This document shows, piece after piece, positions 1 through 20,221 of a DNA stretch of 20,221 bases. The notes beneath the pieces are model-generated. The model ran no database searches. It saw only the letters and a list, made by a program, of their open reading frames with translations, and had not been told where the DNA came from. Source of the DNA: a virus; the IMG/VR virus record IMGVR_UViG_3300030102_007725, positions 7,173-27,393 of that record, one strand, 5' to 3'. Every line of letters begins with the position of its first letter. The first letter of the stretch is position 1. The position numbers were made by a program, and so were the translations under genes.

Positions 1-3000
1 TGGTTCCGAGTCTGGAATCATAGGATGGGCATATGACGGAAATCCAATTTACGGACCAACTGGACGTGTAAATCCAAATAGTGACTTATCTTCAGATGTA
101 AAATCATTAGAATCTGGATATGTACTTGATACATCAAATGTAACAGATAGACCAGTTGGATTTTCCAGTGGATTTTTTGTAGAGGATTATAAATTTAATG
201 GAAGTGGTGATCTGGACGAATACAATGGAAGATATGAAAAAAATAAAGAATATCCAAACGGAGTATATGCATATCATGCGACAGTAAATGAATTTCCATA
301 CTTTATAGGTAATAAGTATAAATCCAAATTAATTTCAGATTCTGATTTAGATCAATCATTTGATTTTAATAATTCTAATTTATTGAGAAACACTCAACCT
401 TATAAAGTATCGGAAGAAAATGCAGACTATGATTTTATTAATGAAACAAATGATGTTTTAGATCAAAAAATAAAAGTTTCATCAGTAACATCTGGTTCAA
501 TAGAAGCAATAGAAATACAAAATGCAGGTAATAATTATAAAGTTGGAGATAAATTGATTTTTGATGAGGATGATACTTCTGGAAGTGGATTGAATGTTGA
601 AGTAAATTCTATAAAAGGTAAAGGCATTGTAGATATAGTTACAAATTCAACATTGAAATTAAATTCTACCTTTATATGGCAATCTAATGAAAAAATAAAA
701 GTTACAATATTACCTAAACATGACTTATCGAATTTGGATTTTGTTACAATATCAGGATTTTCTACTAACTTAGCATCTTTGAATGGAACTCATCAAATTA
801 CAGTTCCATCTTATGCAAACGGAAGATGTCTTTCATCAATAACAAGCGCATCTTCTGCAGGATTTACAACAGAAATATATGTTGCACCTATCCCCGAACA
901 AATTTCTGTTGGAAGTAGTATTGGAATTGGAACCGAAACACTAAAAGTTCTTGGTATATTTAAAAATGAAAATATTTTAAGAATTGAAAGAGGAGTAGTA
1001 GGACTATCACATACTGTTGGAACTGCAGTATCTTTCTTACCGGATTCATTTGTAATTTCAAAATCTGTAGATAAATTTGATTCCAAACTTGATAATGAAG
1101 TATTTTTCAATCCTAAAGAATCTATTGGGGTATCTACTATAAGTGGTGTTGGTTATTCGACTTCATTTGTTTTTGGAAATATTACCGTAAATAGAGATAT
1201 ACCATCCAGAAGTATTGCGATTGAAAATCATCCATTCACAACAAATCAAAGTGTTGGATTTAATACCAATGGATCGAATACAATAGGTGTATCAACTAAT
1301 GGACTTACCTCAGCAGAAGTTTTTATTGATACTTTCCCAAGTCTTTTTGTTATTAATAAAAATTCAAATCTTATTGGATTAAAAACTGCTATTAATGGAG
1401 AAGAGTTATTTTTCCACAGTAATGGTGATAATGATGATAGATATTCTTTAAATGCAAATAATACTAAAGTATTGGGTGATGTTGAAAAAAATCTAGTAAC
1501 GGTTTCAGTTTCTACATCTCATAATCTTCAGAATGGAGATATTATTAACTTAAATGTGCAACCAAATCTTTCTGTAGGTGTTGGAGATTCTACTTCTGTC
1601 AAAGTTATTTACAATTCTAATATTGATAATATTGTTGTAAACCCCATTGGATTTAATTCGACGGGTGTTAGCACAACCACAAATGAAATTACAATTATAA
1701 ACCACGGTTTGAAAACTGGAGATAAAATTCTTTATGATGATAATTCTACGGAAAATGAATATTTTGTCTCTAAAATTAGTAATAATAAGATAAATTTGTG
1801 TGAAACTTTCTTTGATACTAAACAGATTCCCCCAACAGTTGTTTCATTTGCATCGACTGGAGGTTCTGATCAAAAGATATCTTTAATTAATCCCAAATTG
1901 AATCCGGTTAAAAATAATAATTTGGTATTCGATCTTTCGGATTCTAGTTTAGTTGGATATAATTTAAAAATTTATACCGATTCCCAATTAAAAAATGAGT
2001 TTGTATCTACAGGAAATACTAACACATTTAGTGTTTCTAGAACTGGAATTGTTGGAAATTCTTCTGCGACTTTAACACTAACATATGATGATAAAATTAC
2101 ACAAGAATTATATTATAGTTTGGAAAAAGATGGAGTAGTAGTCAATTCTGATACTGATGTTAAAAATTATTCAAGTATTCAATATGTTGAAAGTGCTTAT
2201 AATAACACATATACTATATCAGGAGTAGGAGTAACAAACTTTAATTTAAATATAAGTAATAGGGCAGAAAAATCATCTTATAATTCAACAGAATGTGATA
2301 TTTTAGAATATTCTACAACATCTATTTCTACAACAGGACCAGTAAAATCACTAAAAATTATATCATTTGGTTCTGGATATAAAAAACTACCAGCTTTAAA
2401 ATCTACAAATTCAACTTCTGGAATAGATTTAATTGTAAATACAAAATCAAATGCTATTGGTGTACTAAATGAACAGGAAATTATTAATAATAAATTTACA
2501 TATTCTTCAGATAAAACATTAAGACCCATAGCAAATGTTTCTCCAAATATTAAATTGACGAATTTTAATATTTTGGATAAATTAACTATTATTAATGGAG
2601 GATCTGGTTATACCTCTCCACCTTTATTAACTCTTGTAAATTCTTTCAGTAGAGAAGTAATACCCAATTCTGGATTATTACGTGCAGAGTTGAGTGGATC
2701 TTCACTTTCTTTTGTAGATATTGAAATATCTCCAAAAGGTCTTCCAGATGATACTATAGAAGTATTTACTACCAATAACACTAATGGAATTTCAATTGAA
2801 AAAGTAGAATCGGTATCTTCTCAAGAATTTAAATGTACAATATCAACACCCAATACTGGTGTTGGAAACACTTTTACCGTTCAACCATTTGAAGTTGGTG
2901 ATTTAGTGTTTGTCGAGGGAGTTCAGAAATCTGGTTCTAATGGAAGTGGATTTAATTCTGCAGATTATGGATTTAAATTTTTTAAAGTAACAAATTACAG

Positions 3001-6000: not shown

Positions 6001-8218
6001 AACTATAGAATTTTCTGGAATTACAAAACCAAATGTAGATCCTTTAGAATATGTAACATCCGATTATGATGTCAATATAAATGAAACTCCAAGAGGTGGA
6101 ATCATAGTTTCTTATGGATCTACTCCTGGACTTGGTTTTGCTCCTCTTGTAGGTGCTTCTGTAACTGCTGTCGTTGGTGCTGGTGGATCTATTGCATCTA
6201 TAAGTATAGGAACAACAGGAACATTTGGATCTGGATATAATGGATTGGTTTCTATTGGAATAAGTGTCCATGAAGAAGGACATTCTGGTGCAGCTGCGAC
6301 AATAACAGCAACTGCAAATGTTGGTGCTGGTGGTTCACTAACATTTAATGTTGTTGGTGGTGGTACTGGATATATAAACCCACAAATATTTGTATCTGAT
6401 CCATCATATGAAAATCTTCCCATTGTCGGTGTTTCTAGACTTGGAGTTGGAGCAACAACTGAAACCGGACAAGGAGTTCTATTAAATATTAAAGTGGGAG
6501 GATCCTCCTCTATCACAGGCATAGGATCCACTTATTTTGAGGTAACTGAATTTAATTTTGCAAGACCTGGATATTCATTCCAAAGAGGTGATGTTTTTAA
6601 ACCTGTTGGATTAGTTACAGATTCTTCATTATCTTCTCCAATTTCGGATTTTGAAATTACTGTTATTGATACATATTCTGATAATTTTGCTGCTTGGGAA
6701 TTTGGAGAACTTGATTACATAGATTCTATCAAAGAATTTCAAGATGGTAGGGTTAGATTCCCACTTGCTTATAATGGGCAACTTATTAGTTTTGAAGCTG
6801 AAGAAAACAGTGCTATTGAAAAAAATATTAACAATATTTTAGTTATTTTTATAAATGGTGTTATTCAAAAACCCAAAGTTAACTATATTTTTGAAGGAGG
6901 AACTTCTTTTATATTCACCAAACCACCTTTACCCGAAGATGAAATTGAAATTTATTTCTATAAAGGAATTAGAGGCACTGATTCTATATTCTTTGGTAAT
7001 GTTAGACCCACAATAAAAACAGGTGATAATGTTCAAGTTATAAGTAATAATTTAATTGCTAACTCAGCAACTCAGGAAGAAAGAACAGTATATAATATAA
7101 CAAGTTCAGATACATTTGAAACTAATCGTTATTCTGGCACTGGAATTGGTACAGAAACTGAATTTAAACCTCTGTCCTGGTCAAAACAAAAAAGTGATAA
7201 AAAAATTAATGGAGAATTTGTAAGTAAATCTAGAGATGTATTAGAAACTTTAGTGTTCCCAACTGCTAGAATAATTAAAGATGTTCAGTCAACAGATACT
7301 CAAATTTTTGTAGATAATGCAGAACTATTTAATTATGAAGCAGGAACTTTTGATAATTCACCCACTGATGCATCATTCAGTGATAAACCACAGTCTGGTT
7401 TTGATGCTTTAATCGTAGAAGATACAAATCCGGTTACTGCTACATTTACTGCTTCAATTGATGGAAACGGATCTGTTACTGGCATAACTACAACAAATCC
7501 TGGTTTTGGATACCTTTCAGATCAAACAACCATAGCATTGAAATTTGTTGGAATAGCAACAACAACAGCAACAGCAACAGCATCTATCACTAACGGAGTA
7601 GTTACTGGAACCACAATAACTAATCCCGGAGTTGGATATACAGTTGAACCTACAATATTTGCAGAAACTCCCAATTTAAACATCGAAAAAATTACAGAAT
7701 TTGAAACTATTAATGGATTCTCAGGAATTGTGACTGGAATTACAACAACTACAGGAACCGGAGGAAATCCATTAGCACTTCAATTCACCATATATCATGA
7801 TGATACATCACCTTTCTCTGGATTATCAGTAGGATATCCAGTTTATATTTACGATACTAGAATTGGAACGGGAGTCACATCTATTGATAATTCAAATTCT
7901 GCAGTTGTTGGGATCGGTACAGATTTCTTAGATAATATTTACTATGTTTCTGCTTTGTCTAATAGTGATAAAATTGGAATTATTACATGCAATGTAGATT
8001 CTAACTCGAATATTATTGGTATAGGAACAACGGGAAGTATATCAAGTCCTGTCGGAAAGTATTCATGGGGAAGATTATCCACCGGTACAAGATCTTCAAA
8101 TCCAATATCAATTGGTGTTACTGGAAATACTATTTCTGGATTGTCAACATATCCAACAATTCAAAGAAGAACTTTTGGTATTAGGTTAACTGGAGCACTT
8201 CCTAAAATTGTATCTTGA
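1..8218 (+). CDS. Giant YHYH-type virion structural protein, 5'-truncated by window edge
   Basis: The frame is open from base 2 to TGA at 8216-8218, giving 2738 visible codons; the true start lies left of the window. The first in-frame start-like codon (TTG at 383) falls inside a conserved module and is not a real start. Bases 14-300 encode a YHYH-type module: GIIGWAYDGNPIYGP, then DLDEYNGR, then YAYHATVNEFPYFIG. The middle is a string of beta-rich repeats with many GIGT and GVGT turns, including two DGTD units (about 4150-4880). Bases 6090-7000 form the core I recall as best conserved in marine T4-like phages, with APLVGA, GHSGAAA, GTGYINP, GIGSTYFEV, FGELDYIDS and a late FINGVIQKP...FTKPP unit. 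GxGY modules recur at about 2370, 2600, 6230, 6365, 7500 and 7630. No signal peptide or membrane segment is visible. By position before gp8 it takes the place of T4 gp7 (1032 aa), but I see no sequence match to gp7. Probable role: large baseplate or tail-peripheral component. The exact function is unknown. Confidence 0.85.
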   Translation, partial: GSESGIIGWAYDGNPIYGPTGRVNPNSDLSSDVKSLESGYVLDTSNVTDRPVGFSSGFFVEDYKFNGSGDLDEYNGRYEKNKEYPNGVYAYHATVNEFPYFIGNKYKSKLISDSDLDQSFDFNNSNLLRNTQPYKVSEENADYDFINETNDVLDQKIKVSSVTSGSIEAIEIQNAGNNYKVGDKLIFDEDDTSGSGLNVEVNSIKGKGIVDIVTNSTLKLNSTFIWQSNEKIKVTILPKHDLSNLDFVTISGFSTNLASLNGTHQITVPSYANGRCLSSITSASSAGFTTEIYVAPIPEQISVGSSIGIGTETLKVLGIFKNENILRIERGVVGLSHTVGTAVSFLPDSFVISKSVDKFDSKLDNEVFFNPKESIGVSTISGVGYSTSFVFGNITVNRDIPSRSIAIENHPFTTNQSVGFNTNGSNTIGVSTNGLTSAEVFIDTFPSLFVINKNSNLIGLKTAINGEELFFHSNGDNDDRYSLNANNTKVLGDVEKNLVTVSVSTSHNLQNGDIINLNVQPNLSVGVGDSTSVKVIYNSNIDNIVVNPIGFNSTGVSTTTNEITIINHGLKTGDKILYDDNSTENEYFVSKISNNKINLCETFFDTKQIPPTVVSFASTGGSDQKISLINPKLNPVKNNNLVFDLSDSSLVGYNLKIYTDSQLKNEFVSTGNTNTFSVSRTGIVGNSSATLTLTYDDKITQELYYSLEKDGVVVNSDTDVKNYSSIQYVESAYNNTYTISGVGVTNFNLNISNRAEKSSYNSTECDILEYSTTSISTTGPVKSLKIISFGSGYKKLPALKSTNSTSGIDLIVNTKSNAIGVLNEQEIINNKFTYSSDKTLRPIANVSPNIKLTNFNILDKLTIINGGSGYTSPPLLTLVNSFSREVIPNSGLLRAELSGSSLSFVDIEISPKGLPDDTIEVFTTNNTNGISIEKVESVSSQEFKCTISTPNTGVGNTFTVQPFEVGDLVFVEGVQKSGSNGSGFNSADYGFKFFKVTNYSTTESVNDVVTVSISGLGTNTGIAKTIQDFSGVIINEKDYPKFEVTQKAFKFSVGENLSSNGIVRDLEVTASNDNDLKVIGSYELSKNEIITGVLSGNIATIDQIKFNEGVFDVNYSNLKNIGWNNEIGKLNEDFQVISDNDYYQNLSYSIKSSKTYKDQQSPVESLVHTSGLKNFADTQISSPVNAGLAKSNSTSDELSVIYDLIDEKRVDTINNFDNVVDINVIESASKFLKLNAKKLTNYFEFKNLNVLTVDNIDDQFSNSESENTEFLLINEVDDKTYHNYLLRVTNEDNTEIQLVDITILSDGIKTVIVENESLQNSTCGSFKLFENEFDETFLKFDPVDPFNKNYNIKLIEQTFNTTNSGIGTESIGFVDLFGSVSVENTVTGIGTTTIVSLNSNNFESLYVNAQVIDTVTNEMNYARLYIVHDGTDTYMAEYYIDNDDSLLSVNQIGIFTCTDLGGGVLSLVHENTSSNQIRIRSNIVGFGTTSVGKNNFRFKSSDQVDGQERSAVYNSDFQSMVGIASTTIHTLDKTLFNASKSIVQVSIGSSKALHQVMMLFDGTDVYTQQLPFLSVDTINNPLDTLSGIGTFGGELSGSNFILKFYPDDQSQEIDIEVLNKSLYTELDISNDYNNLSYGSVNERIDEKFYNSINGVRINRTNFKLTSDSVPIFSKTFNPNSSSLDAATGKFEIKDHFFVTGEELIYTPESTIVGVGTSALLTSGGELPSTVYAIKINENEFKVALTTALAQSGIGTTFTSLGEGNAHRFTMKERNSKSIITIDELVQYPIAFTKISHNLSGNVGGSLGISTSFVSLSGISTVNIKDILLVDEEYLGVVNVGLGTTNIGPITNSGSINLVEVERGFVGSSATTHSDGSEARVYKGAFNIVNDEIHFAEAPRGNPQIDKTKNNLDFPTSSFTGRVFLKSNYDDNKVYDDISDEFTGIGRTFTLSVGGGSTTGIGTSGGNGLVFVNNIYQSPKTANNPLISNYEIFESNSVGITTIEFSGITKPNVDPLEYVTSDYDVNINETPRGGIIVSYGSTPGLGFAPLVGASVTAVVGAGGSIASISIGTTGTFGSGYNGLVSIGISVHEEGHSGAAATITATANVGAGGSLTFNVVGGGTGYINPQIFVSDPSYENLPIVGVSRLGVGATTETGQGVLLNIKVGGSSSITGIGSTYFEVTEFNFARPGYSFQRGDVFKPVGLVTDSSLSSPISDFEITVIDTYSDNFAAWEFGELDYIDSIKEFQDGRVRFPLAYNGQLISFEAEENSAIEKNINNILVIFINGVIQKPKVNYIFEGGTSFIFTKPPLPEDEIEIYFYKGIRGTDSIFFGNVRPTIKTGDNVQVISNNLIANSATQEERTVYNITSSDTFETNRYSGTGIGTETEFKPLSWSKQKSDKKINGEFVSKSRDVLETLVFPTARIIKDVQSTDTQIFVDNAELFNYEAGTFDNSPTDASFSDKPQSGFDALIVEDTNPVTATFTASIDGNGSVTGITTTNPGFGYLSDQTTIALKFVGIATTTATATASITNGVVTGTTITNPGVGYTVEPTIFAETPNLNIEKITEFETINGFSGIVTGITTTTGTGGNPLALQFTIYHDDTSPFSGLSVGYPVYIYDTRIGTGVTSIDNSNSAVVGIGTDFLDNIYYVSALSNSDKIGIITCNVDSNSNIIGIGTTGSISSPVGKYSWGRLSTGTRSSNPISIGVTGNTISGLSTYPTIQRRTFGIRLTGALPKIVS
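4150..4880 (+). repeat. Two diverged tandem DGTD domains within the giant protein
   Basis: Two successive segments share one layout: an amide- or serine-rich strand, a hydrophobic strand ending in a DGTD turn followed by a tyrosine (HDGTDTY at 4283, FDGTDVY at 4679), then a GIFTC or GIGTFGG turn, a strand (VLSLVHEN, FILKFYPDD) and a closing strand (IRIRSN, IDIEVLN). The two DGTD turns are 396 bases (132 codons) apart. Nucleotide identity is low, so this is an old protein-level duplication rather than a recent DNA repeat. Similar DGTD units are, from memory, common in marine T4-like phage giant proteins. Confidence 0.6.
4263..4285 (+). other. Perfect 9-bp hairpin inside the giant gene
   Basis: ATGCACGAT (4263-4271) and ATCGTGCAT (4277-4285) are exact reverse complements around a 5-base loop. 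The hairpin overlaps the codons leading into the first DGTD turn. No T-run follows, so it is not an intrinsic terminator. It may be a chance product of coding sequence or an mRNA structure. Confidence 0.6.
6173..6333 (+). repeat. 14-base direct repeat coding VGAGGS in adjacent glycine-rich modules
   Basis: GTTGGTGCTGGTGG occurs at 6173-6186 and again at 6320-6333, in the same frame. It encodes VGAGGS each time, at the beginning of two neighbouring GxGY-type modules (FGSGYNG, then GGTGYINP). This supports the view that the two modules arose by duplication. Confidence 0.6.
7556..7582 (+). repeat. CAA/CAG simple-sequence repeat in the giant gene
   Basis: The run is built from CAA and CAG triplets with hexamer period AACAGC and encodes alternating Thr and Ala (ATTTATATA). 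It lies between two GxGY modules near the C-terminus of the giant protein. Any slippage by whole units would stay in frame and lengthen or shorten a Thr/Ala strand or linker. Confidence 0.6.
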
Positions 8219-8251: not shown

Positions 8252-9793
8252 ATGGCTGCATTCGTAACAGATCAATTTAGAATATTGAATGCTGGTTCTT
8301 TTGTAGAGTCTATCAGTAATAATTCTTATTATACTTTTTTAGGATTAGCAAATCCAACTGCAACTGGATTTGGTAGAACTGATACTTGGAATACAAGCAC
8401 AACTAATAATCCTGTAGATAATTTTCAGCACTTATCTCATTATAGAGATACCAGTTTATTTGGTAAAAAAATTACTGAACAAAATGCTAGAAGAGTTATA
8501 AAAAAAATTGAATGGATTGAGGGCACTGCTTATGATATGTATAGACATGATTATGGACAATATGCCGGAAATCAAAATTTAGCTATAGTCAGTAAGGCAC
8601 TAAGATTATATGATGCAAAATATTATGTAATTACTAGTGAATTTAAAATTTATATATGTATTGAGAATGGAACTACGGGTGATAGTGCGACTGCTCCTAC
8701 CTCAACTATAGAACCAAATCATACTGATGTAGAACCAGTAGAATATTCTGATGGATATAGGTGGAAGTATCTATTTAAAATTTCTCCGTCAGATGTTATT
8801 AAATTTGACTCTACAGAATTTATAGTTGTTCCGAATAGTTGGGAAACTAGCACAGAGAATGAAATTAAAGTGATTAGAGATGGTGGAGATTCTAATTTAA
8901 ACAATAATCAAATTAAAACCGTATTCATTGATCAAAAAGGTGCTAATTATACAAATGGAGATACTGCAGATATTATAGGAGATGGGACCGGAGGTAAAGT
9001 TTCAATAACAACAGACAACCTTGGAAGTATTACTAAAGTTACGGTGACTCAAGGTGGTAAAGGATATACTTATGGATATTGCAATTTTCCAACTCCGGAG
9101 GGTAATAGTCCAGCAAAATTAATACCTATTATTCCACCATCTAGAGGTCATGGATATAACATATATCAAGAACTAGGAACTGATAAAGTATTACTGTATG
9201 CAAGATTTGATGACTCCACTAAAGATTTTCCCGTAGATACTAAATTTGCTCAAGTTGGAATTATAAAAAATCCCGAAACATTTTCGGGAGTTGGAGTGAC
9301 TTTTACAGAAAATTCATTTTCATCACTTTTTTCTGCTAAATTGACAGAAAGTGTGCCCAAATTAATTAATGGAACTAGTATTATTGGACTAGAAATAACA
9401 CAGACTCAATCCGATGGTTCCGTTGCAAAAGGGTATGTTGCTTCCTTTGATGAAGAAACCAATGTTTTAAAATACTATCAAGATAGATCATTATCTTTTG
9501 GCAATTCGGTGGATCAAACACAAAACAATGATTCCAAACCTATTGTTTCATTTGACAATAGTGAGTCGATTAAATTTTCAGATTCAATTAACAGAACAGT
9601 TGATATTTCCTTTGAAGGTAGTTCTATTCTAGTTAATAGCAAACAAATTAACTTAGGTGTTTCTTTTACAGGTGGACTTGCAAATCCGGAGATAAATAAA
9701 AAGACAGGGGATATAATTTACATAGACAATCGACCCGAAGTTCAAAGAGACACTAGACAAAAAGAAGACGTTAAAATTATTCTGGAATTCTAA
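8252..9793 (+). CDS. 8: Baseplate wedge protein gp8 (T4-like), enlarged
   Basis: The 513-residue product matches T4 gp8 (334 aa) at spaced landmarks. Residues 164-175 (EYSDGYRWKYLF) correspond to T4 EPGDGYVWEYLF, and residues 189-194 (EFIVVP) to EYIVVP. A later block, KVLLYARFDD...QVGIIKNPE (from about 312), corresponds to TIRFKAYLDS...QISIITNP. The C-terminus (from 486, GDIIYIDNRPE...ILEF) corresponds to GEMIYMENRPP...LFTF. In T4, gp8 is a wedge component that binds gp7, gp10 and gp6 and is held as a dimer. Extra length sits in two places: a GGKGY-containing insert around residues 220-300, and about 130 residues between the NPE block and the C-terminal strand. The ATG at 8252 gives MAAFVTDQFRILNA, a beginning typical of marine homologues. 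It follows a late promoter box closely and ends 6 bases before the next gene. Confidence 0.9.
   Translation: MAAFVTDQFRILNAGSFVESISNNSYYTFLGLANPTATGFGRTDTWNTSTTNNPVDNFQHLSHYRDTSLFGKKITEQNARRVIKKIEWIEGTAYDMYRHDYGQYAGNQNLAIVSKALRLYDAKYYVITSEFKIYICIENGTTGDSATAPTSTIEPNHTDVEPVEYSDGYRWKYLFKISPSDVIKFDSTEFIVVPNSWETSTENEIKVIRDGGDSNLNNNQIKTVFIDQKGANYTNGDTADIIGDGTGGKVSITTDNLGSITKVTVTQGGKGYTYGYCNFPTPEGNSPAKLIPIIPPSRGHGYNIYQELGTDKVLLYARFDDSTKDFPVDTKFAQVGIIKNPETFSGVGVTFTENSFSSLFSAKLTESVPKLINGTSIIGLEITQTQSDGSVAKGYVASFDEETNVLKYYQDRSLSFGNSVDQTQNNDSKPIVSFDNSESIKFSDSINRTVDISFEGSSILVNSKQINLGVSFTGGLANPEINKKTGDIIYIDNRPEVQRDTRQKEDVKIILEF
9265..9289 (-). terminator. Antisense intrinsic-terminator-like hairpin inside gp8
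   Basis: On the minus strand the sequence reads TCCCGAAA, ATG loop, TTTCGGGA, then six T. This is a perfect 8-bp stem with four G:C pairs and a U-tract (A-run on the + strand at 9265-9270, stem 9271-9289). Read on the + strand it is only a hairpin, with no T-run. It lies inside gp8 codons for KNPETFSG. It would stop transcription running against the late genes, but no minus-strand gene is evident nearby, so the function is inferred and chance is possible. Confidence 0.45.
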
Positions 9794-9799: not shown

Positions 9800-12700
9800 A
9801 TGGCACAAAAAACAGACTTAAATATCAGTCCATATTATGACGACTTTGATAAAAATAAAAATTTTTATAAAGTTTTATTTAAACCAGGATTTCCAGTTCA
9901 GGCTAGAGAATTAACTACTCTTCAGTCTATTCTACAAAATCAAGTAGAATCTTTTGGTAATAATATTTTTAAAGAAGGTTCCATGGTTTTACCAGGATCC
10001 GTCACTTTTGATAATGAATATTGCGCTGTTAAATTAAATTCTATCAATCTAGGAATAGATATTTCAGTATATATTAAGAATTTTATTGGAAAAACAATAA
10101 CAGGAAGTTTATCTGGTGTAAGTGCCACAATCAAAGAAGTTGCACTTACAACTGATAGTGATATTGTAGATAATGTAACAATTTATGTAAAATATTCTAA
10201 GGCAGGAACTAACTCCGAATCTACAACTTTTGAATTGGGAGAAGAGTTAACCGCATCTGAAAATGTAGCATTTGGAAATATTACGTTTAATGCCGGAACT
10301 TCATTTGCCTCAGTTTTACAAGAAAATGCCATATTCATTGGTTCTTCCGCATCTATTGATAGTGGGGTGTATTTTATAAGAGGAACTTTTGTTGATGTAT
10401 CTAAACAGACTCTTATATTAGACTATTATACTAATGAACCATCATATAGAGTTGGATTGCAAATAAATGAGTCTATTGTTAGTGCTAAAGATGATCAATC
10501 TTTATATGATAATGCAAAAGGATTTTCTAATTTTGCTGCACCAGGAGCAGATAGATTTAAAATTTCATTAACTCTAGTTAAAAAATCTTTAACAGATTTT
10601 GATGATATTAATTTTGTAGAAGTTCTTAGAGTTGATGATGGCAAAATAAAGAAAGTAGTTGATAAAACTGTTTACAATATTATTAGAGATTATATTGCAG
10701 AGAGAACTTTTGATGAATCTGGACATTATACTGTTGACGAGTTTCGATTAAATGTTGTCGATTCACTAAATGATAGAATAGATAATGATGGTTTGTTTTT
10801 GGAAAACGAAACTACTGAAGAAGGAAATATTCCAAATGATGATTTAATGTGTGTTCAGGTTTCACCTGGAAAAGCATATGTGGCTGGATATGATGTCAAA
10901 CTTGATGCAACAGAAACGGTTGATGTTAAAAAACCAAGAGATACTGAAAATGTAGCATCTATCAATGTTCCATTTGAGATGGGCAATCTATTAAGAGTTG
11001 ATAATGTTGAGGGAGCACCAAAAGAAAGTGCTACCATACTTTTAAAAAGTCAATTTAAAGCAGATACATCTGGTCAAAAGGAGATTGGAAAAGCTAGGGT
11101 ATATACATTCAATTTAACAGATTCAGCATATTCGGGTGCGGCAACTCAATGGGATTTATACCTTTATGACATACAAACTTATACAAGTTTGACATTTAAT
11201 AGGACTGTATCAGCACAAGAAATTAAAGCAACATCTTTTATTGAAGGTAAGAGTAGTGGTGCAACAGGTTTCGCAGTTGCTGCTGGTGATGGGACATCAT
11301 CATTGAACATTTACCAAACTTCGGGAACTTTTGTTGCAAATGAGCAATTGATTGTTAATGGAGTTGATGCATCATTAGCATTAGCAAGTTTTATAGTATA
11401 TGGTATTAGAGATATTAAATCTGTTGAACAAACGGAATCCGGATTTCCTACATTTAAAGCAAATAGTACTCTAACCAGAAAACAAATTGATGGAATTAAT
11501 CAAGTCAGTATTACAGGAACTACTTTAACAAGTCCAGGAAAACTTTTTACAGGAATTAAAGTTGGTGATATCATCAAATATCAAGATGGAAATAATTTAA
11601 GATATAATAGAGTTTCTGACGTAGATGGAAATTTAACTTCATTAACAGTGACTGCTATAAACTCGGTAACTGGAGTTTTTAATGGTGGTGTTGGATCAAA
11701 TGGAACTTACAATGTTGAACTTGCAGTTCCAGAATTAAGAAATAATGAAAATGCATTCCTTTATGCAAATCTTCCAGACTCCAATATTGCTTCGGTAAAT
11801 CTTTCCAATTCTCAATTGTCTATAACCAGTCAACTTGTTAACCAAACAACAAACGGATCAGGGCAATTAACATTTAATTTATCCAATGTAAGTGGAATCA
11901 CTAGTGCATCTTTTGAATCATTTGATCAGGAAAGATATTCTGTGCACTATAATGGTGGTGGGATTGGTACAATTACTTCCGATTCCTTTAATCTATCAGG
12001 TAATACTGTAACAATTGAAGGTCTAATACCAAGTCAAAGTAGCAATGTTGTTGTAAATACAACTCTCATAAAGAATGGTATTCAAAGTAAGATTAAAGAA
12101 TATACAAGAAGTGCTTTAAATATTGTAAATCTTTCCAAACTTGTTCAGTCCGGTGCAGCAACTAGTGATTCTATCAATGATGGATTAACGTATAATGAAT
12201 ATTATGGATTAAGAGTTCAAGATGATCAAATTTCTTTAAATGTACCAGACGTATCCGAAGTTCTTGCAGTATATGAGTCTACAAATACGGGTGATCCACA
12301 ATTAGATGTACTTAAATTATCATCAATATCTCAGGTAGACACTGATGCAATTATCGGTGAAGATATTATTGGATCTGATACTGGTGCTTTGGCAAGAATT
12401 GTTTTAAATAGTTCTTCCGGAAAATCATATGTCAGTTCAAATCAATTAGGAATAGTTTATTTGAATGATCAAAAATTTAATCCCGGAGAAAATGTAGTAT
12501 TCAAAGAGTCTAATATAATTTCAACATTAGAATCAATAACTTTAGGAAAATATAAAAATATTACAAATGATTTTAATCTGGATAAAGGTCAAAGAGATCA
12601 ATATTATGATTACTCCAGATTAGTCAGAGTTGGAACTCAAATTCCTGAAAGAAGAATTTTAATTGTGTATGATCACTATACAATTTCAGCATCAGATGAT

Positions 12701-15700
12701 GGAGATGTCTTTACTGTTCTCAGTTATGATGCAGACAGATTCTCAAATAATATTCCCAACATAGGTTCTAAAGGTGTTAGAGCTTCTGATACTCTGGACT
12801 TCAGACCCAGAGTACCAACATTTAATCCAGCAACAACTAAATCTCCATTTGATTTTGCCTCAAGAAATTTTGGATCCAATAATCCAAAATTCACATTAAA
12901 ACCTGAAGAGGGATCACTTATTGGATATGACTTCTATCTACCAAGAATCGATAAAGTATATCTTGATAAATTTGGCAATGTTCTTGTGAGAAACGGAGTT
13001 TCTTCTGTAGAACCAGTTCCACCATCTAATGATGATGGTTCTTTAATGGAATTAGCACAGATTAATCTTCCTGCATATCTTTATAGTTCAGATGATGTTT
13101 CTATTAGAACATTAGATAATAGAAGATATACAATGAGAGATATTGGAAATCTTGAGGATAGACTTGAAAACTTAGAAAAAGTTACTTCCTTAAGTTTACT
13201 TGAAGTTAATACAAAAACTTTAAAGATTGAAGATTCTGAAGGAAATGATAGATTTAAAAGTGGAATATTCGTAGATAACTTTAATGATAGATCTTTGTCT
13301 AACAATAATTTGACGACTGCAAATATCATAGGTGGACAACTTAGACCTTTTACTATCAGAAATTCTCTGCAGCAAAGATTAGTTCCTGCGGTTGAAATTC
13401 CAGAGAATGAATTAGATTTATCTCAGAATTATGATTTATTAGATTCAAATGTTCAGAAGACTGGAAATGCCGTTACTTTGAAATATGATTCCGTTGATTG
13501 GTTAAATCAATCTTTTGCAACTAGAGTTGAAAATGTAAATCCATTCCATGTTGTAGAATATACTGGACTGATAAATCTTTCTCCCAATACTGATACTTGG
13601 GTAAGAACTATCAATCTTCCACCTCGTGTAGAAGAAAAAACAGTAAAGAGAACAATTAATGAAGAAGAAAATGTTTTTGCTGAGGATAGAGTTATAGACT
13701 TAAATCCAGATGAATTTGATTCATTTGTGGCAGAAACAGAAATATTATCAAGAACTTCTACAAACAGAATCGAAAGAAATACTACTTCTAGCACTAGAAC
13801 TGTTTTTGTTTCCTCAGGTGTAGAAAAATATATTCGTTCTAGAAATGTATCCTTCTTTGGAACTCTTTTTAGACCCTTAGAAAGACATTATCAATTCTTA
13901 GATAATCATAGTAATGTAAACTTTATACCAAAACTTATTGAAATTGCAAATTCTACCACTTTACAGAATATAGGTTCTTCCAATAATTCATTTCAAACGG
14001 GAGAAACAATAAGAGTTTATAATAGTGAGGGAACTAAAATAGGTGCATTTAGATTAGCAGCATCAAATCATAAAACTGGAAAGTTCGACTCACCAACAAT
14101 TACATATTCTACCAATCCATATACACCTTCAGAAAATATACCTGCAGGGTATAGTCAATCATCCAAGACTATTAACATTGATCTAAATTCATTATCTGCT
14201 GAAGATCAAGGAGATTTTAATGGATATATTGAAAAGGGAGCAAAAATAGTAGGACAAAATAGTGGTGCAATTGCATATGTTAAAAATCTTAGATTGATTG
14301 CTGATACAAACGGATCTTTATTTGGATCATTCTTTATTAAAAATCCACATGTAAGTCCTGCACCTAATCCAAGAATTCTTACTGGTAGAAAAACTTACAG
14401 GTTAAGTAGTAGTTCTTCAAATGAAAAACAACTGCCTGGTAGTACACTCATTTCTGCCGGAGATGCTACTTATACGGCAAATGGAACATCAAGAACATTC
14501 CAACAGGTAACTACAAATACTACAAGAATAACTTCCACTATAACTACAGTTATAACTAGGAGAAATACAAGAGCACGTAGAGTAGATCCATTAGCTCAAT
14601 CTTTTACAGTCGGTAGAGAAATTGATGCACCAAACTTTAATGGTGATAGTGATGATGATAATGGTGTATTTTTAACTGAATTGGATTTATTCTTTGCATC
14701 AAAACCTCAGGGAGAAGAACCACTCACTGTTGAAATAAGAACTATGGAACTGGGAATACCAACCTTAGATCTTGTAGGAGAATCCAAAACTCTGATACCA
14801 AGTGAAATTGCAACTTCAACAGATGGTACAACAGCAACTAGAGTTACATTCGATTATCCAATATTCTTACCCCCAGGACAAGAATATGCAATTGTTTTAC
14901 TTGCACCAAATTCAGACCAATATGAGGTTTGGACTGCAAAAATGGGTGAAAAAACTGTTGAAACACAAAATCTTCCAAATACAGAGTCTATAAAATATTC
15001 TAGACAATTTGCAATTGGAAGTCTATTTAAGTCTCAAAATGGATCAATATGGACTCCAGCGCAAGAATCTGACCTTAAATTTAAATTATATAAAGCAAAA
15101 TTCACTTCGAATACTGGAATTGTACATTTTGGAAATCCTCCTCTCGATAGTAGTAATGGATACGTTCCATCACTTCAAGATAATGCAATTACCGTATTAC
15201 CAAAAAAAGTAACTCTTGGTATTACACCGATACCTTCTGGTAGTTCTCTAGTTGATATTTTAACAGAGGGTAGAAAAATTAAAGGAACAGGATCTGGATT
15301 TGGACATATTGTTTCAACAGGAAGTAGTGTTTCTGGAACTACAACTACTAATGGTGGTTTGAACTATACAACAGGAACAAGATCTACAACCAATGTATTT
15401 GGTAGTGGTAGTGGATTAACTCTTAATGTTTCTAGTGTTGATTCTTCTGGCACTATTACTGGAATATCCGTTGTTTCTGGAGGAAATGGATATAATAGTG
15501 GTGATATTGTTGCACTCACAAATACTGGTAGTCAGACAGGTAGAGATGCAGTTATTTCTGTTACTGCTAGTGGTAATATTGATAGATTATTCCTTAGCAA
15601 TGTTCAGGGTTCAATTCCAACTGGAGATTTAGTCTACTTTGATACAGATAGCACCACAGTTTCTCTTGGAAATACTGATGTCTTAAGTTCAACTGATGTT

Positions 15701-17086
15701 GGAGGCATTTTCTCTGGAAATTATCTACAAGTTAAACATTTTAATCATGGAATGTATGCCAATAATAATAAGTTAGTGTTAAATGACATCTCTTCTGATA
15801 CAGCACCTACAGTATTAAGTGCTGATCTTCCTTCTACGACAGTTGCTGGAGGAGTAATTAACATTGAAGACTCCACAATCTTTACAACTTTTGAAGGACA
15901 ATCAGTTGATTCAACTAATCTTGGATATGTCAAAATTGGTGATGAAATTATTTCATATAGTGCGGCAAATTTAAATCAACTTACCATCAATTCAAGAGCA
16001 GTGGAAGGAATTGTCGAGAATCATTCAATCGGAGATAAAGTAACAAAATACGAACTTAACGGAATTTCTTTAAGAAGAATAAATGATGTAATCTATGATA
16101 TTTCTGATATTGATATTACTAGCAATTCATATTATGTTGAAGTTGATAGAGGTGCAACATCTACTGAGGAAGGAAAATCAATAGGTCTTAATAGAGCTAC
16201 TGATGGAACATATCCTCAAGTATCTTTTGCATCGGAACTGATTGGTGGAGGAGATCAAATTAAAGCTTCTGAAAATATAATGTTTAATAGGATTAATCCA
16301 AGATTTGATATTCTATCTCCTGGAAGACAAACATCCACATCTTCAAATATTAGGACCACATCAGGAACTAGTATTGATGGAAATGAAGTTTCATTCACTC
16401 TTGCAAATACTCTCGAATCAGTAATACCAAATCAAGTTAATCATTTAAATTCTGTTGGTATAGTTTGTTCTAGGGTAAATGAATTAAATCAATCTCAATT
16501 CTCCAATGTATCAGGAAATAGATCATTTAATTCTACGGTAACATTAAATACAACTGATGAAAATCTTTCTCCAATGATATTTGTTGATAGTTCAACAGTA
16601 GAATTTATTTCTGATGACATCAATCGTCCGATAACAAATTATATTCAAGATTCTAGAGTGAATTCAATATCTAATGATCCACACGAAGCAGTTTATGTTT
16701 CAAATGCGATAAAACTTGCCCAACCAGCATCTTCCTTGAAAGTTATATTGACGGCATATAGACCCGAGGTTGCAGATATAAGAGTTCTTTATACTTTAAT
16801 TAGAGAAGATTCGACAGATGTAGAACAAAGATTTGAATTATTCCCAGGTTTCAGTAATTTAGAATCATCATCTAATGGTTCTTTAAAAGTTGTTGACTCC
16901 TCACTTAATGATGGAAGACCTGATATTAAAGTTCCTGCAAGTGAAAAGAATCAATATTTAGAATATGAATTTACTGCAAATGATTTGGAAGATTTTAGTG
17001 GATATGCAATTAAGATAGTGATGTCATCAACAGATCAAGCAAACTATCCAATAATTAAAGATCTCAGAACTCTAGCAACGAAATGA
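9800..17086 (+). CDS. Giant DUF4815-type virion structural protein, 2428 aa
   Basis: The N-terminus (SPYYDDFD, then FKPGFPVQARELTTLQSILQ and IFKEGSMVLPG) is the signature of the DUF4815 family found in many marine and other phage tail proteins. Around residues 1108-1160 is YTMRDIGNLEDRLENLEK followed by SLLE and DRFKSGIFVDNF, a short coiled-coil-like stretch usual in this family. From about residue 1596 DPLAQSF leads into FLTELDLFFASKP and a PPGQEYAIVLL strand. A Gly/Ser-rich segment near 1830-1910 carries a GGNGY module, and 2043-2082 carries the GDEIISY...RAVEG...H..GD motif. The C-terminal 135 residues (DPHEAVYVSN, ADIRVLYTL, FELFPGF, DLRTLA) form a domain recalled as conserved in cyanophage homologues. 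It lies between gp8 and the neck genes, where T4 encodes gp9-gp12 and fibritin, so a baseplate or tail-fibre role is likely; no match to those T4 proteins is visible. The start is the ATG 6 bases after gp8, with only a weak A-rich ribosome site. Confidence 0.85.
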   Translation: MAQKTDLNISPYYDDFDKNKNFYKVLFKPGFPVQARELTTLQSILQNQVESFGNNIFKEGSMVLPGSVTFDNEYCAVKLNSINLGIDISVYIKNFIGKTITGSLSGVSATIKEVALTTDSDIVDNVTIYVKYSKAGTNSESTTFELGEELTASENVAFGNITFNAGTSFASVLQENAIFIGSSASIDSGVYFIRGTFVDVSKQTLILDYYTNEPSYRVGLQINESIVSAKDDQSLYDNAKGFSNFAAPGADRFKISLTLVKKSLTDFDDINFVEVLRVDDGKIKKVVDKTVYNIIRDYIAERTFDESGHYTVDEFRLNVVDSLNDRIDNDGLFLENETTEEGNIPNDDLMCVQVSPGKAYVAGYDVKLDATETVDVKKPRDTENVASINVPFEMGNLLRVDNVEGAPKESATILLKSQFKADTSGQKEIGKARVYTFNLTDSAYSGAATQWDLYLYDIQTYTSLTFNRTVSAQEIKATSFIEGKSSGATGFAVAAGDGTSSLNIYQTSGTFVANEQLIVNGVDASLALASFIVYGIRDIKSVEQTESGFPTFKANSTLTRKQIDGINQVSITGTTLTSPGKLFTGIKVGDIIKYQDGNNLRYNRVSDVDGNLTSLTVTAINSVTGVFNGGVGSNGTYNVELAVPELRNNENAFLYANLPDSNIASVNLSNSQLSITSQLVNQTTNGSGQLTFNLSNVSGITSASFESFDQERYSVHYNGGGIGTITSDSFNLSGNTVTIEGLIPSQSSNVVVNTTLIKNGIQSKIKEYTRSALNIVNLSKLVQSGAATSDSINDGLTYNEYYGLRVQDDQISLNVPDVSEVLAVYESTNTGDPQLDVLKLSSISQVDTDAIIGEDIIGSDTGALARIVLNSSSGKSYVSSNQLGIVYLNDQKFNPGENVVFKESNIISTLESITLGKYKNITNDFNLDKGQRDQYYDYSRLVRVGTQIPERRILIVYDHYTISASDDGDVFTVLSYDADRFSNNIPNIGSKGVRASDTLDFRPRVPTFNPATTKSPFDFASRNFGSNNPKFTLKPEEGSLIGYDFYLPRIDKVYLDKFGNVLVRNGVSSVEPVPPSNDDGSLMELAQINLPAYLYSSDDVSIRTLDNRRYTMRDIGNLEDRLENLEKVTSLSLLEVNTKTLKIEDSEGNDRFKSGIFVDNFNDRSLSNNNLTTANIIGGQLRPFTIRNSLQQRLVPAVEIPENELDLSQNYDLLDSNVQKTGNAVTLKYDSVDWLNQSFATRVENVNPFHVVEYTGLINLSPNTDTWVRTINLPPRVEEKTVKRTINEEENVFAEDRVIDLNPDEFDSFVAETEILSRTSTNRIERNTTSSTRTVFVSSGVEKYIRSRNVSFFGTLFRPLERHYQFLDNHSNVNFIPKLIEIANSTTLQNIGSSNNSFQTGETIRVYNSEGTKIGAFRLAASNHKTGKFDSPTITYSTNPYTPSENIPAGYSQSSKTINIDLNSLSAEDQGDFNGYIEKGAKIVGQNSGAIAYVKNLRLIADTNGSLFGSFFIKNPHVSPAPNPRILTGRKTYRLSSSSSNEKQLPGSTLISAGDATYTANGTSRTFQQVTTNTTRITSTITTVITRRNTRARRVDPLAQSFTVGREIDAPNFNGDSDDDNGVFLTELDLFFASKPQGEEPLTVEIRTMELGIPTLDLVGESKTLIPSEIATSTDGTTATRVTFDYPIFLPPGQEYAIVLLAPNSDQYEVWTAKMGEKTVETQNLPNTESIKYSRQFAIGSLFKSQNGSIWTPAQESDLKFKLYKAKFTSNTGIVHFGNPPLDSSNGYVPSLQDNAITVLPKKVTLGITPIPSGSSLVDILTEGRKIKGTGSGFGHIVSTGSSVSGTTTTNGGLNYTTGTRSTTNVFGSGSGLTLNVSSVDSSGTITGISVVSGGNGYNSGDIVALTNTGSQTGRDAVISVTASGNIDRLFLSNVQGSIPTGDLVYFDTDSTTVSLGNTDVLSSTDVGGIFSGNYLQVKHFNHGMYANNNKLVLNDISSDTAPTVLSADLPSTTVAGGVINIEDSTIFTTFEGQSVDSTNLGYVKIGDEIISYSAANLNQLTINSRAVEGIVENHSIGDKVTKYELNGISLRRINDVIYDISDIDITSNSYYVEVDRGATSTEEGKSIGLNRATDGTYPQVSFASELIGGGDQIKASENIMFNRINPRFDILSPGRQTSTSSNIRTTSGTSIDGNEVSFTLANTLESVIPNQVNHLNSVGIVCSRVNELNQSQFSNVSGNRSFNSTVTLNTTDENLSPMIFVDSSTVEFISDDINRPITNYIQDSRVNSISNDPHEAVYVSNAIKLAQPASSLKVILTAYRPEVADIRVLYTLIREDSTDVEQRFELFPGFSNLESSSNGSLKVVDSSLNDGRPDIKVPASEKNQYLEYEFTANDLEDFSGYAIKIVMSSTDQANYPIIKDLRTLATK

Positions 17087-17341: not shown

Positions 17342-17677
17342 ATGGCAGTATTTGTATCAAATATAGTAATTGAGCAGGGATTTGATTTTAATACTAATTT
17401 TGTACTAGAGGATGTTTCCACAACTAATTTTTTGGATTTGAGTGGTTACACAATAGAGTCCAAACTCAAAAAAACATACAGTTCTTCTGGTTCAGTTTCT
17501 TTTGCATCAACTGTGATAAGTGCTACTGGAGGAGAAGTTAAAATATCATTAGCATCTACAGAAACAACCAATTTAAAAGGTGGTAGGTATGTTTATGATG
17601 TTAAAGCATCTAATGGATCTAGTGTATTAAAATTGGTGGAGGGAACTGCACTAGTTAGACCGGGAGTAACTAGATAA
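17342..17677 (+). CDS. Conserved small virion structural protein, 111 aa
   Basis: The product begins MAVFVSNIVIEQGFDFN and shows LEDVSTTNFLDLSGYTIESK, then a KGGRYVYDVKA strand and a closing LVEGTALVRPGVTR. This is an all-beta layout resembling the N-terminal domain of siphophage baseplate upper proteins (BppU type), and is recalled as a common small protein in cyanophage structural clusters. The fold assignment is inferred from the pattern of strands and turns; no catalytic residues are seen. It opens the second late transcription unit and overlaps the fibre-like gene by one base (TAATG), so the two are probably made together. A baseplate or fibre-attachment role is plausible. The start was chosen at 17342 because the upstream in-frame ATG is closed off by TGA. 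Confidence 0.75.
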   Translation: MAVFVSNIVIEQGFDFNTNFVLEDVSTTNFLDLSGYTIESKLKKTYSSSGSVSFASTVISATGGEVKISLASTETTNLKGGRYVYDVKASNGSSVLKLVEGTALVRPGVTR

Positions 17678-18339
17678 TGCCAACAATAAGAGGTTCTGTT
17701 AAGCAATCATCAGTAATAAAGGCTAGAGTTGGTCAACAAAATGTATCTCGCGTATTATCTAATGCATCTTCTCCTCCAACAAGATTAATAGATTTAACTG
17801 ATGTAAATAATCAGTTAAAAGATAAAGATGGAATGATTCTTGTCTGGAATCTTCCAACTCAAACCTTTATAATGACAAGTGTCATTGATGCAGATACTTT
17901 AAGTATTGGTAGTAGTGTTTTTTATACTGATACTACTGATAATATTTTAGGTGATGCCAATACTGGTGCTGTTCAAACTGATGGTGGTGTTGGAATTGGT
18001 AAAAATTTGACAGTTGGTTCCAGTTTTTCTGTCGCTGGAACAATTGATAATACTTTAGGTAATGCCCATACTGGTGCGGTTCAAATTGATGGTGGTGTTG
18101 GAATTGCTAAAAATTTATCTATTGGTTCTAGTTTATCAGTAAAAAAATCATTATTTTATGATTCTGAAAATTTTTATTCTCCTAACGGAGTTGCATATTT
18201 CGATAGTAGTGGAAAACTTGTTAGTGGACTTAGTACAGAATCTCCAATTTCTACAAGTAACTATATATTAACAACACTAGAAATCGCAGGAATAGGAACT
18301 CCTGTATGGACAAGCACTATTGACGGAGGAGAATACTAG
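17677..18339 (+). CDS. Fibre-like structural protein with two 36-residue repeats, 220 aa
   Basis: Residues 1-60 contain LIDLTDVNNQLKDKDGMILV followed by WN and TFIM, the LTDV...DG.vLv.n pattern common at the base of phage tail-fibre modules. Residues 88-123 and 124-159 are two copies of a repeat, DNxLGxAxTGAVQxDGGVGI, then KNLxxGSSxSV. This glycine-turn beta repeat is widespread in phage fibre and appendage proteins. The C-terminus (NYILTTLEIAGIGTPVWTST) may be a capping or attachment segment. The short length suggests a fibre stalk or adaptor, not a complete receptor-binding fibre. It sits between the 111-aa protein and gp13, the region where T4 has fibritin (wac), but I see no fibritin-like coiled coil. 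ATG at 17677 overlaps the previous stop (TAATG). Its own stop overlaps the gp13 GTG. Confidence 0.75.
   Translation: MPTIRGSVKQSSVIKARVGQQNVSRVLSNASSPPTRLIDLTDVNNQLKDKDGMILVWNLPTQTFIMTSVIDADTLSIGSSVFYTDTTDNILGDANTGAVQTDGGVGIGKNLTVGSSFSVAGTIDNTLGNAHTGAVQIDGGVGIAKNLSIGSSLSVKKSLFYDSENFYSPNGVAYFDSSGKLVSGLSTESPISTSNYILTTLEIAGIGTPVWTSTIDGGEY
17938..18153 (+). repeat. Two tandem 108-base in-frame repeats in the fibre-like gene
   Basis: Copy 1 spans 17938-18045 and copy 2 spans 18046-18153, each 36 codons and beginning GATAAT. The best-kept stretch is TGGTGGTGTTGGAATTG, identical in both. The first two-thirds of the unit align closely at the nucleotide level, pointing to duplication more recent than the diverged modules of the giant proteins. 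Recombination between copies could change fibre length in steps of 36 residues. Confidence 0.8.
18325..18331 (+). promoter_or_regulatory. Strong ribosome binding site deciding the gp13 GTG start
   Basis: GGAGGAG, among the best Shine-Dalgarno matches ahead of a gene start in this window, ends 7 bases before GTG at 18339. It lies inside the last codons of the fibre-like gene and supports the GTG start, which overlaps the preceding TAG by one base. Confidence 0.7.
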
Positions 18340-19178
18340 TGTCTAAACCAAATACCAAACAAGGATTAATTGATTATTGTTTAAGACAACTTGGAGCTCC
18401 TGTATTAGAAATTAATGTAGCAGATGAACAGATTGATGATCTGCTTGACGATACTATTCAATATTTTAATGAACGTCATTTTGACGGAGTTGAAAGAATG
18501 TATCTAAAATACAAAATTTCTCAAGATGACATTAATAGAGGCAAGGCAAGTGGAACGGATGGAGTTGGAATTGTAACAACCACTGGAACCTCAACTATAG
18601 TCGGAACTGCAACTACATTTAATTTTTACGAAAATTCAAATTATATTCAAGTTCCAGAATCTGTTGTAGGAATTGAGAAAATATTTAAGTTTGACACCAG
18701 TTCAATTTCTGGAGGAATGTTTAGTATCAAGTATCAATTATTTTTAAATGATTTGTATTATTTCAATTCTGTAAATCTTTTGCAGTATTCAATGACTAAA
18801 ACTTATTTGGAAGACATTGACTTTTTACTTACTACTGATAAGCAAATAAGATTCAACAAAAGACAAGATAGATTATATTTGGACATAGATTGGGGAGCAC
18901 AAACTAAAGATACATTTTTTGTAATAGATTGTCATAGGGCATTGGATCCAGAATCATTCACTCAAATATATAATGACTCATTTGTAAAAAAATATTTAAC
19001 TGCGATGATAAAAAGGCAGTGGGGTCAAAATTTAATAAAATTCAATGGGGTTAAACTTCCCGGTGGAATTGAATTAAATGGAAGACAAATATATGATGAT
19101 GCCCAGAGAGATTTAGATGACATTAAACAAAGAATGTCATCGGAATACGAATTACCACCTTTGGATTTTATTGGATAA
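18339..19178 (+). CDS. 13: Neck protein gp13 (T4-like)
   Basis: The 279-residue product begins MSKPNTKQGLIDYCLRQLGA and continues with EINVADEQIDDLLDDTIQYF and HFDGVERMYLKYKI. This matches the N-terminus of T4-type gp13 (309 aa in T4) and of cyanophage gp13. In T4, gp13 and gp14 form the neck that closes the filled head and joins it to the tail. An internal Gly/Thr-rich loop at about residues 67-90 (GVGIVTTTGTSTIVGTATT) resembles the GVGT-type turns of the baseplate proteins. The C-terminal part (QWGQNLIKFNGVKLPGGI, then ELPPLDFIG) is typical of marine homologues. The GTG start is supported by a strong ribosome site and by N-terminal agreement with the family. It ends 2 bases before gp14. Confidence 0.92.
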   Translation: MSKPNTKQGLIDYCLRQLGAPVLEINVADEQIDDLLDDTIQYFNERHFDGVERMYLKYKISQDDINRGKASGTDGVGIVTTTGTSTIVGTATTFNFYENSNYIQVPESVVGIEKIFKFDTSSISGGMFSIKYQLFLNDLYYFNSVNLLQYSMTKTYLEDIDFLLTTDKQIRFNKRQDRLYLDIDWGAQTKDTFFVIDCHRALDPESFTQIYNDSFVKKYLTAMIKRQWGQNLIKFNGVKLPGGIELNGRQIYDDAQRDLDDIKQRMSSEYELPPLDFIG

Positions 19179-19180: not shown

Positions 19181-20221
19181 ATGGCATTAAATCCCTTCTT
19201 TTTACAAGGTTCTTCCAATGAACAATATTTGGTTCAGGACTTAATTAATGAACAGTTGAAAATCTATGGTATAGATGTTTATTATCTTCCTAGAAAATTT
19301 ATGAGAACTGATGATATTTTAAATGAAGTAGAAACCTCAAAATTTGATGATAATTTTATATTAGAAGCATATTTGGAAAATTATGAAGGATATGCTCCCG
19401 GTAGTGATTTAATGACTAAATTTGGATTGAGATTAAAAAATGAAATTAATTTAGTTATTTCAAGAGAAAGATTTGAAGAATTTATAGTTCCTATGTTAAG
19501 AGGAAGAGATTCAGCAGTTACTGGTGGAAATATAACAGATTATGAGATGAATTTAGTATCCAGACCAAAGGAGGGAGACTTAATTTATTTTCCTTTGGGA
19601 GAAAGGTTATTTGAAATAAAGAGAGTAGAATTTGAAAAACCTTTTTATCAATTAGGAAAAAATTATGTTTATGAACTGCAATGTGAACTTTATGAATATG
19701 AAAATGAAGATATTGATACTTCAATCGAAGAAATTGACACAACTGTTGAGGATGAGGGTTATATCACATCTTTAATCTTAGGTGCATCTCAACAAACTAC
19801 TGCTACAGCAAATTCAACAATTGATGATGGTGTTGTGAGTCAAATTGTATTAGTTGATGATGGATCTTCATATTCATCAACACCAACTATTGGCATTTCA
19901 TCTTCACCAACAGGAAACAGTGACGATAATGCAATTGCTGTTGCAATTACAACATCTGTAGGTGATGCAAAGTCTATAGAATCTATAAAACTGATTTACG
20001 GTGGTCGTGGATATAGCATTTCTAATCCACCATTAATTACTATTACTGGAGGTGGAGGAATTGGAGCAGCTGCAACATCTATAGTTTCTAATGGTGCAGT
20101 AACTATAGTGACAATGACAAACAATGGTGCAGAATATTATTCTGAACCAACTGTTACTATTACTGGTCCATCAGTAGGACAAACTGCAACTGCAAAAGCA
20201 ACATTCAATCCATCTACAGGA
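19181..20221 (+). CDS. 14: Neck protein gp14 (T4-like), C-terminally extended, 3'-truncated by window edge
   Basis: The frame is open from ATG at 19181 to the window end (347 codons, no stop). It begins MALNPFFLQGSSNEQYLVQD. Landmarks shared with T4 gp14 (256 aa) are DLINEQLKIYGIDVYYLPRK, FILEAYLENYEGY, then GDLIYFPL at residues 132-139, LFEIKRVEFEKPFYQLGK and YVYELQCELYEYENEDIDT. gp14 partners gp13 in the head-tail neck. In T4 the protein ends soon after the last landmark. Here, from about residue 190, a Gly/Thr/Ser-rich extension follows, containing three PT or PP beta modules: SSYSSTPTIGIS, GGRGY (274-278) with NPPLITITGG, and NGAEYYSEPTVTITG. These are the same module type found in the baseplate proteins. 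In similar phages such insertions may be followed by the rest of gp14, but the right edge hides the end. Confidence 0.92.
   Translation, partial: MALNPFFLQGSSNEQYLVQDLINEQLKIYGIDVYYLPRKFMRTDDILNEVETSKFDDNFILEAYLENYEGYAPGSDLMTKFGLRLKNEINLVISRERFEEFIVPMLRGRDSAVTGGNITDYEMNLVSRPKEGDLIYFPLGERLFEIKRVEFEKPFYQLGKNYVYELQCELYEYENEDIDTSIEEIDTTVEDEGYITSLILGASQQTTATANSTIDDGVVSQIVLVDDGSSYSSTPTIGISSSPTGNSDDNAIAVAITTSVGDAKSIESIKLIYGGRGYSISNPPLITITGGGGIGAAATSIVSNGAVTIVTMTNNGAEYYSEPTVTITGPSVGQTATAKATFNPSTG
19845..20221 (+). repeat. GxGY/PxITI beta modules in the gp14 extension
   Basis: At least three protein-level units occur in the visible extension, each reading roughly V..I.....G..Y.s.PpiTItg. The clearest are GGRGYSISNPPLITITG (from 20000) and NNGAEYYSEPTVTITG (from about 20121). 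Similar units sit in gp8 (GGKGY, 9053) and in both giant proteins. The series continues to the window edge, so the number of units is unknown. Confidence 0.65.

Follow-up and report, generated by a model that had tools for sequence, protein, structure and literature searches.

The DNA analysed here, which we call the window, is a 20,221-nucleotide stretch of a viral metagenome record (IMG/VR IMGVR_UViG_3300030102_007725, positions 7,173 to 27,393). Its right end coincides with that of the 27,393-base record and cuts through a gene for gp14, the T4-type stopper (head closure protein Hc2) of the phage neck (forward strand, 19181..20221; 347 codons seen, open to the contig end). Neck connector proteins are usually viewed as conserved plumbing. 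As judged from sequence, gp14 in the relatives of this phage carries an insert that differs between close relatives through the exchange of cassettes, the core before it and the short tail peptide behind it being retained. This exchangeable slot, with its apparent LamG and FG-GAP forms, would be the new part of the finding; no account of gp14 inserts was found in the open-access literature searched, subscription papers lying mostly outside that search. We lean, with moderate confidence, towards the interpretation that this gp14, from a marine T4-like phage of the cyanophage type, is an ordinary stopper bearing a variable surface insert in its C-terminal arm, displayed as six outward loops that would act as a surface-contact appendage.

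The identity of the protein is clear from its core and context. Residues 1-185 (19181..19735) are homologous to the solved T4 gp14 by phmmer (chains of 9mkb and 9lu4, E 7e-23 and 1e-22) and by Pfam (PF11649, 6.3e-29), and in PHROG, phrog_679 covers residues 1-190 and phrog_460 (head closure) residues 1-339 (1.7e-103). Gene 13 (gp13, phrog_211) lies directly upstream at 18339-19178; gene 15 is next after gene 14 in P-SSM2, Syn9, P-TIM68 and S-SSM7, and the window record ends before that position. Among the best 80 IMG/VR loci related to the window gp14 (loci of this and of the further scans carry L numbers below), L004 and L005 are the nearest relatives with a complete gene; both are 90-91% identical to it and hold the frame to a stop after 479 residues, which rules out a misreading or frame artefact. 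In 69 of the 80 loci the gene is closed, and 59 of these 69 proteins measure 470-485 residues. A first-pass annotation had described a core ending near residue 190, followed in frame by at least 157 residues of beta modules. That description holds: 157 residues follow residue 190, the T4-type core extends to about residue 185, a repeat hidden Markov model (HMM) recognizes GxGY repeats beyond it, and the closest complete relatives carry the same region rather than being module-free with a stop just past the window. Since the phrog_460 profile itself reaches residue 339, gp14 proteins of this group normally have such a region; by the standard of T4 it is unusual in a neck protein, yet at the gene level it is ordinary among marine T4-like phages.

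The GxGY repeat, detected with an HMM built for this analysis, is a glycine-rich unit of about 42 residues comprising an alanine-rich strand, a strand ending in GxGY and a PxVxI strand. Three copies are evident on the forward strand of the window, at residues 203-242 (19787..19906; 45.9 bits), 248-291 (19922..20053; 32.7 bits) and 289-330 (20045..20170; 46.4 bits), followed by the weak, contig-cut start of a fourth at residues 330-346 (20168..20221; 9.9 bits). In L004 and L005 the layout is four GxGY repeats, a small type-2 domain (GExVxG) and the conserved tail, and in L005 the fourth repeat is followed by these last two elements before the stop after codon 479. Residues 186-202 (19736..19786), a helix or linker and a beta strand in the L005 model, probably supply, judging by P-SSM4-type gp14, the first strand of the small type-2 barrel that hosts the array. 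The array is not a chance feature, because four repeats recur in 196 of 458 closed gp14 proteins (a sample drawn by similarity, so that the count is no prevalence) and because the modules are under purifying selection, with a ratio of nonsynonymous to synonymous substitution rates (dN/dS) of 0.29-0.45 between the window and five relatives, compared with 0.08-0.20 for the core. The label "adhesion-type" given to these modules at first pass was not borne out where the GxGY repeats are concerned: PF11649 was the sole Pfam family that the window gp14 matched with E allowed up to 1.

The wider comparison drew on 496 sources, of which 494 have a gp14 core and 458 a closed and complete gene. The IMG/VR loci among them are the best 80 per scan and include near-copies (L337 appears to be another Syn9 copy), and the scripted gp14 start falls ten residues later than the annotation in L089 and one residue later in L175. 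Across T4, Vibrio VH7D, Salmonella Marshall, Caulobacter Cr30 and the cyanophages compared, the last 12-20 residues of gp14 are conserved with or without modules; the module-free Cr30 protein (261 residues) ends DIIDFTEDNPYGRY and the window's relatives end DSILDFTEVNPFGE. In 452 of the 458 closed proteins the tail motif falls within the final 32 residues, with no match upstream in any of them, and the distance from core to tail spans 36-665 residues in these 452. The six lacking the pattern are four Straboviridae ending [NS]PF[DG], Marshall ending IDFGE, and L397, which has a broken frame. In this last locus (4001 onward), a Syn9-type gp14 leaves the frame of its relatives after about residue 205 and finishes at 232 residues without the tail motif. 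Because the conserved peptide comes after the modules and is equally the end of proteins without them, the modules constitute an internal insert: what had been taken for a C-terminal extension sits inside gp14, and a plain extension is ruled out. The tail is seen in the relatives, L004 and L005 included; that of the window gp14 would lie past the contig end, upstream of which its sequence stops.

What occupies the slot varies widely. The 458 closed proteins comprise 88 without a module (counting the broken L397), 81 with the type-2 domain only, 71 with type 2 and two repeats (L372, L373, L382 and L360 among them), 9 with three repeats, 196 with four (including L036) and 13 with five to eight; seven to eight repeats occur in six loci of 836-851 residues. 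Cultured phages sample the same range, with the small barrel alone in P-SSM4, two repeats in Syn9, four in P-SSM2 and a LamG domain in S-SSM7. The LamG-type domain is present in five closed loci of 757-759 residues (L041, L042, L043, L069, L070), in the contig-cut L048 and L068, and in the gp14 of S-SSM7 (762 residues) and Sf-FS3 (763 residues). When excised and compared with the Pfam gathering score of 27.6 for Laminin_G_3, it passes in four of these nine (L041 and L042, 28.2; S-SSM7, 31.3; Sf-FS3, 36.2), and its matches in the phage collection are four records, all gp14 (S-SSM7 twice, S-SSM6a and Sf-FS3). Consecutive FG-GAP_2 (PF14312) stretches, six in L372, seven in L382 and seven in L373 (E 1.9e-69, 1.4e-74 and 5.3e-77, respectively), occur in loci bearing three different metagenome numbers. 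The arrangement is nested: L372 and L382 have a split type-2 domain, of which the first part spans residues 187-227 and the remainder comes after residue 629-639, with the repeats and FG-GAP stretches between, and a similar split surrounds the two repeats of Syn9 and L404. By eye, a third module (Y..G.Y..T...G.GSGA..., Y..GD...I) lies between GxGY repeats in the gp14 of L036, L360 and L078, and resembles a stretch of the window's 2428-residue protein.

Exchange of whole cassettes is most apparent between close relatives. The gp14 proteins of L382 (748 residues) and L393 (390 residues) have cores 97.8% identical; at the DNA level the first 644 bases are 88% and the last 467 bases 96% identical, flanking 1136 versus 62 bases. 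L372 (758 residues) and L366 (390 residues) likewise share cores 96.8% identical, and L430 (836 residues) and L432 (461 residues) cores 96.2% identical. A cassette of about 360 residues can be present or absent behind cores 97-98% identical. The cores of the five closed LamG loci are 89-90% identical to those of their nearest shorter relatives, those of S-SSM7 and Sf-FS3 only 54-55%. On a tree of 114 representatives computed from the core only, eight architectures require 12 changes, compared with a shuffled mean of 30.4; states were assigned from HMM counts and hand labels, L397 was left out, and many branches are weak, 19 of the 111 being starred and 52 open. LamG requires two changes on this tree, which the starred branches alone also force. 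The window, scored as four repeats from its relatives, falls within one starred clade of 92 rows, 83 of which are four-repeat forms.

These patterns bear on whether the insert, even if external, might be purely mechanical, clamping the joint of gp13, gp14 and gp15 as has been proposed for the neck decoration proteins of Staphylococcus phage 812. In the part of that report available to us, the phage 812 stopper has an external beta-sandwich domain absent from E217 and Pa193 (PMC12886913), and a brace would also suit the predominance of four repeats in the window's clade. A fitted interface would hardly be expected to evolve as the modules do, namely faster than both core and tail by pairwise identity and with a higher dN/dS than the core (mean identity over 2000 random pairs from 184 gp14 proteins of 460-490 residues: core 66%, repeats 41-48%, type 2 46%, tail 69%), nor to gain or lose an entire FG-GAP or LamG domain between relatives with cores 89-98% identical, and many phages (88 of the 458 here) have a module-free gp14. 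We therefore regard the brace as rather unlikely. Modules might instead enter by recombination with those of the phage's own tail proteins and simply be tolerated, unused. Similar repeats do occur in the window's giant structural proteins, and relatives of the FG-GAP insert were found in 18 phage records, mostly of cyanophages and where named structural or baseplate proteins, none of the 18 carrying a gp14 or neck label. Selection on the modules, shown by their dN/dS of 0.29-0.45 and by the persistence of the four-repeat architecture over a deep clade, speaks against such neutral accretion, to which we assign the lowest probability of the explanations considered.

In the favoured interpretation, a stopper with a variable surface insert, the core and tail peptide would keep the joint between gp14 and gp15, by analogy with T4, where residues 178-256 of gp14 are disordered before the tail joins and then bind gp15, according to the accessible portion of a preprint (PMC12270204). 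The insert, tethered at both ends, would loop outward on the neck, surrounding it with six GxGY fingers, each carried by a small beta barrel. An exterior position is suggested by size, in that six inserts of about 350 FG-GAP residues are unlikely to fit the DNA channel. The most conjectural step is the last, in which the appendage is predicted to contact the host envelope, glycans or the phage's own fibres, and module exchange would tune it. LamG and FG-GAP are binding folds elsewhere, and because they occupy the same slot in relatives, adhesion or glycan contact is the favoured role; by this analogy they lend indirect support to display. In pelagimyophages a hypervariable "host recognition cluster" lies between VrlC and gp14, so that, as far as the available part of that report describes it, gp14 would border a host-contact region in related phages (PMC7029224).

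Several observations weigh against this interpretation. The hexamer, the contact with gp15 and the outward position are all carried over from T4, and an adhesive role for the GxGY and type-2 domains is putative. Within its clade the array of four repeats varies rather little, a pattern as compatible with a fixed structural element as with an adhesin. Excised LamG domains score below 27.6 in five of the nine loci (L043, 26.3; L048, L068, L069 and L070, 23.7 each), and the LamG assignment is one of Pfam profiles alone, because the AlphaFold model of L041 is unusable in that region (predicted local distance difference test, pLDDT, about 25). Neither the LamG profile nor the FG-GAP insert matched any PDB sequence at E 0.1. 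The AlphaFold core of L005 gp14 is also poor, with a mean pLDDT of 60.8. The module region of the same model is predicted as beta strands, residues 211-370 having pLDDT 73-91 by blocks of ten. With this model, Foldseek returned T4 gp14 alone below E 0.001, and all VIA-align scores were below Z 8, a range that may reflect only a common arrangement: the module region aligned with 9f4a_A0 (Z 7.6, root-mean-square deviation 3.9, 89 aligned), with the T4 sheath 3foa_A (Z 6.0, deviation 2.7, 72 aligned, model residues 220-303) and with barrels of the aIF2-gamma/EF-Tu type (Z 4.5-5.8).

The modules had also been suggested to place decorations where T4 fibritin whiskers attach and to take over a whisker- or collar-like role. 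In T4, fibritin binds domain III of gp13 (residues 190-239), not gp14, as stated in the accessible part of the preprint (PMC12270204). The window gp13 (head-tail adaptor Ad2, phrog_211; forward strand, 18339..19178; 279 residues) lacks this domain in the gp13 comparison, having 7 residues where T4 has 50, with the gap at about residues 198-206 (18930-18956). Domain III is kept in all four Straboviridae proteins fetched (50-54 residues) and reduced to 7-9 residues in the other 15, window included; by alignment to a fixed column set, which covers insertions at those columns only, 441 of the 445 complete gp13 proteins are without it, the four possessing it being Straboviridae. Absence of the fibritin dock is thus well supported at the sequence level, and the fibritin gene is likely absent from this phage, though only 27 kb of its genome are covered. 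In a search of 50,697 phage records with T4 fibritin, 1428 matched, and the ten commonest genus names among these include neither Synechococcus nor Cyanophage, both of which are in the top ten for gp14 (rarer names unlisted). These findings would suit an insert that replaces fibritin in holding or helping to attach the long tail fibres. Against this stand the T4 partner itself, gp13 rather than gp14; the confounding of the dock with descent, as it tracks Straboviridae; and six phages (Cr30, DLP6, phiM12, OC, Melnitz and Marshall) in which gp13 lacks domain III, no gp14 module was detected and the short stretch of sequence examined for each carries no gene annotated as fibritin. Because phages lacking both dock and modules exist, a whisker substitute is not required; its necessity is ruled out, the insert does not stand in one-for-one for fibritin, and we consider such a replacement very improbable.

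Known neck systems offer partial parallels. T4 gp14 shares with the window and its relatives a homologous core, a gp13 gene just upstream, a C-terminal arm and the P-F tail, the last conserved in the relatives; it is module-free at 256 residues, whereas GxGY relatives reach about 390-850 with modules between core and tail. T4 fibritin (gpwac) is likewise an appendage at the neck, but is a coiled-coil trimer from its own gene seated on gp13 domain III, unlike a beta-rich insert within the gp14 frame. The phage 812 stopper gp97 also has an extra outside domain, an external beta-sandwich, in a decorated neck; its decorations gp164 and gp56 are separate proteins, whereas the insert here is within the gp14 frame, and exchange of LamG, FG-GAP or GxGY modules is not noted in the available part of that report (PMC12886913). 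The Milano collar protein gp13 forms a similarly beta-rich neck collar whose decorating domain is said, in the available text, to resemble glycan-interacting proteins, but is a separate protein in 15-fold rings outside the stopper (PMC10491603).

Similar modules appear elsewhere in the window. A gp8 baseplate wedge homologue (8252-9793; 513 residues, where T4 gene 8 has 1005 bases) shows one weak GxGY match at residues 255-273, and phrog_460 (gp14) matches its residues 190-274 (E 3e-4); a similar module may thus occur in baseplate and neck. A 2428-residue structural protein (9800-17086) contains DUF4815 (PF16075, 1.9e-58) and three weak type-2-like matches, and a giant open-ended reading frame that starts upstream of the window (2-8218; 2738 residues seen) has five weak to moderate GxGY matches. 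A 220-residue protein (17677-18339) bears, by eye, two "GNxxTGAVQxDGGVGIxKNLxxGSS"-like repeats and a weak pAdhesive_15 match below the Pfam cut-off. Before it, a 111-residue protein (17342-17677) matches phrog_3304 (L-shaped tail fibre assembly), with LtfC below cut-off; in S-SKS1 and P-TIM68, too, a gene so named immediately precedes gp13.

Taken at the level of annotation, the length of gp14 reflects domain exchange and not error. In a broader view, which we offer tentatively as plausible rather than probable, gp14 of marine T4-like phages may serve as a display platform, its nested and double-tethered slot receiving adhesion-type domains (GxGY fingers, lectin-like LamG, FG-GAP beta-propellers) swapped by cassette exchange, and would provide an evolvable collar by which whisker-less phages touch hosts or surfaces. 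Cultured phages with different insert forms make the display idea directly testable. If it is true, the evolution of host contact or surface binding in these abundant marine phages would have a site away from the tail tip and the fibres.
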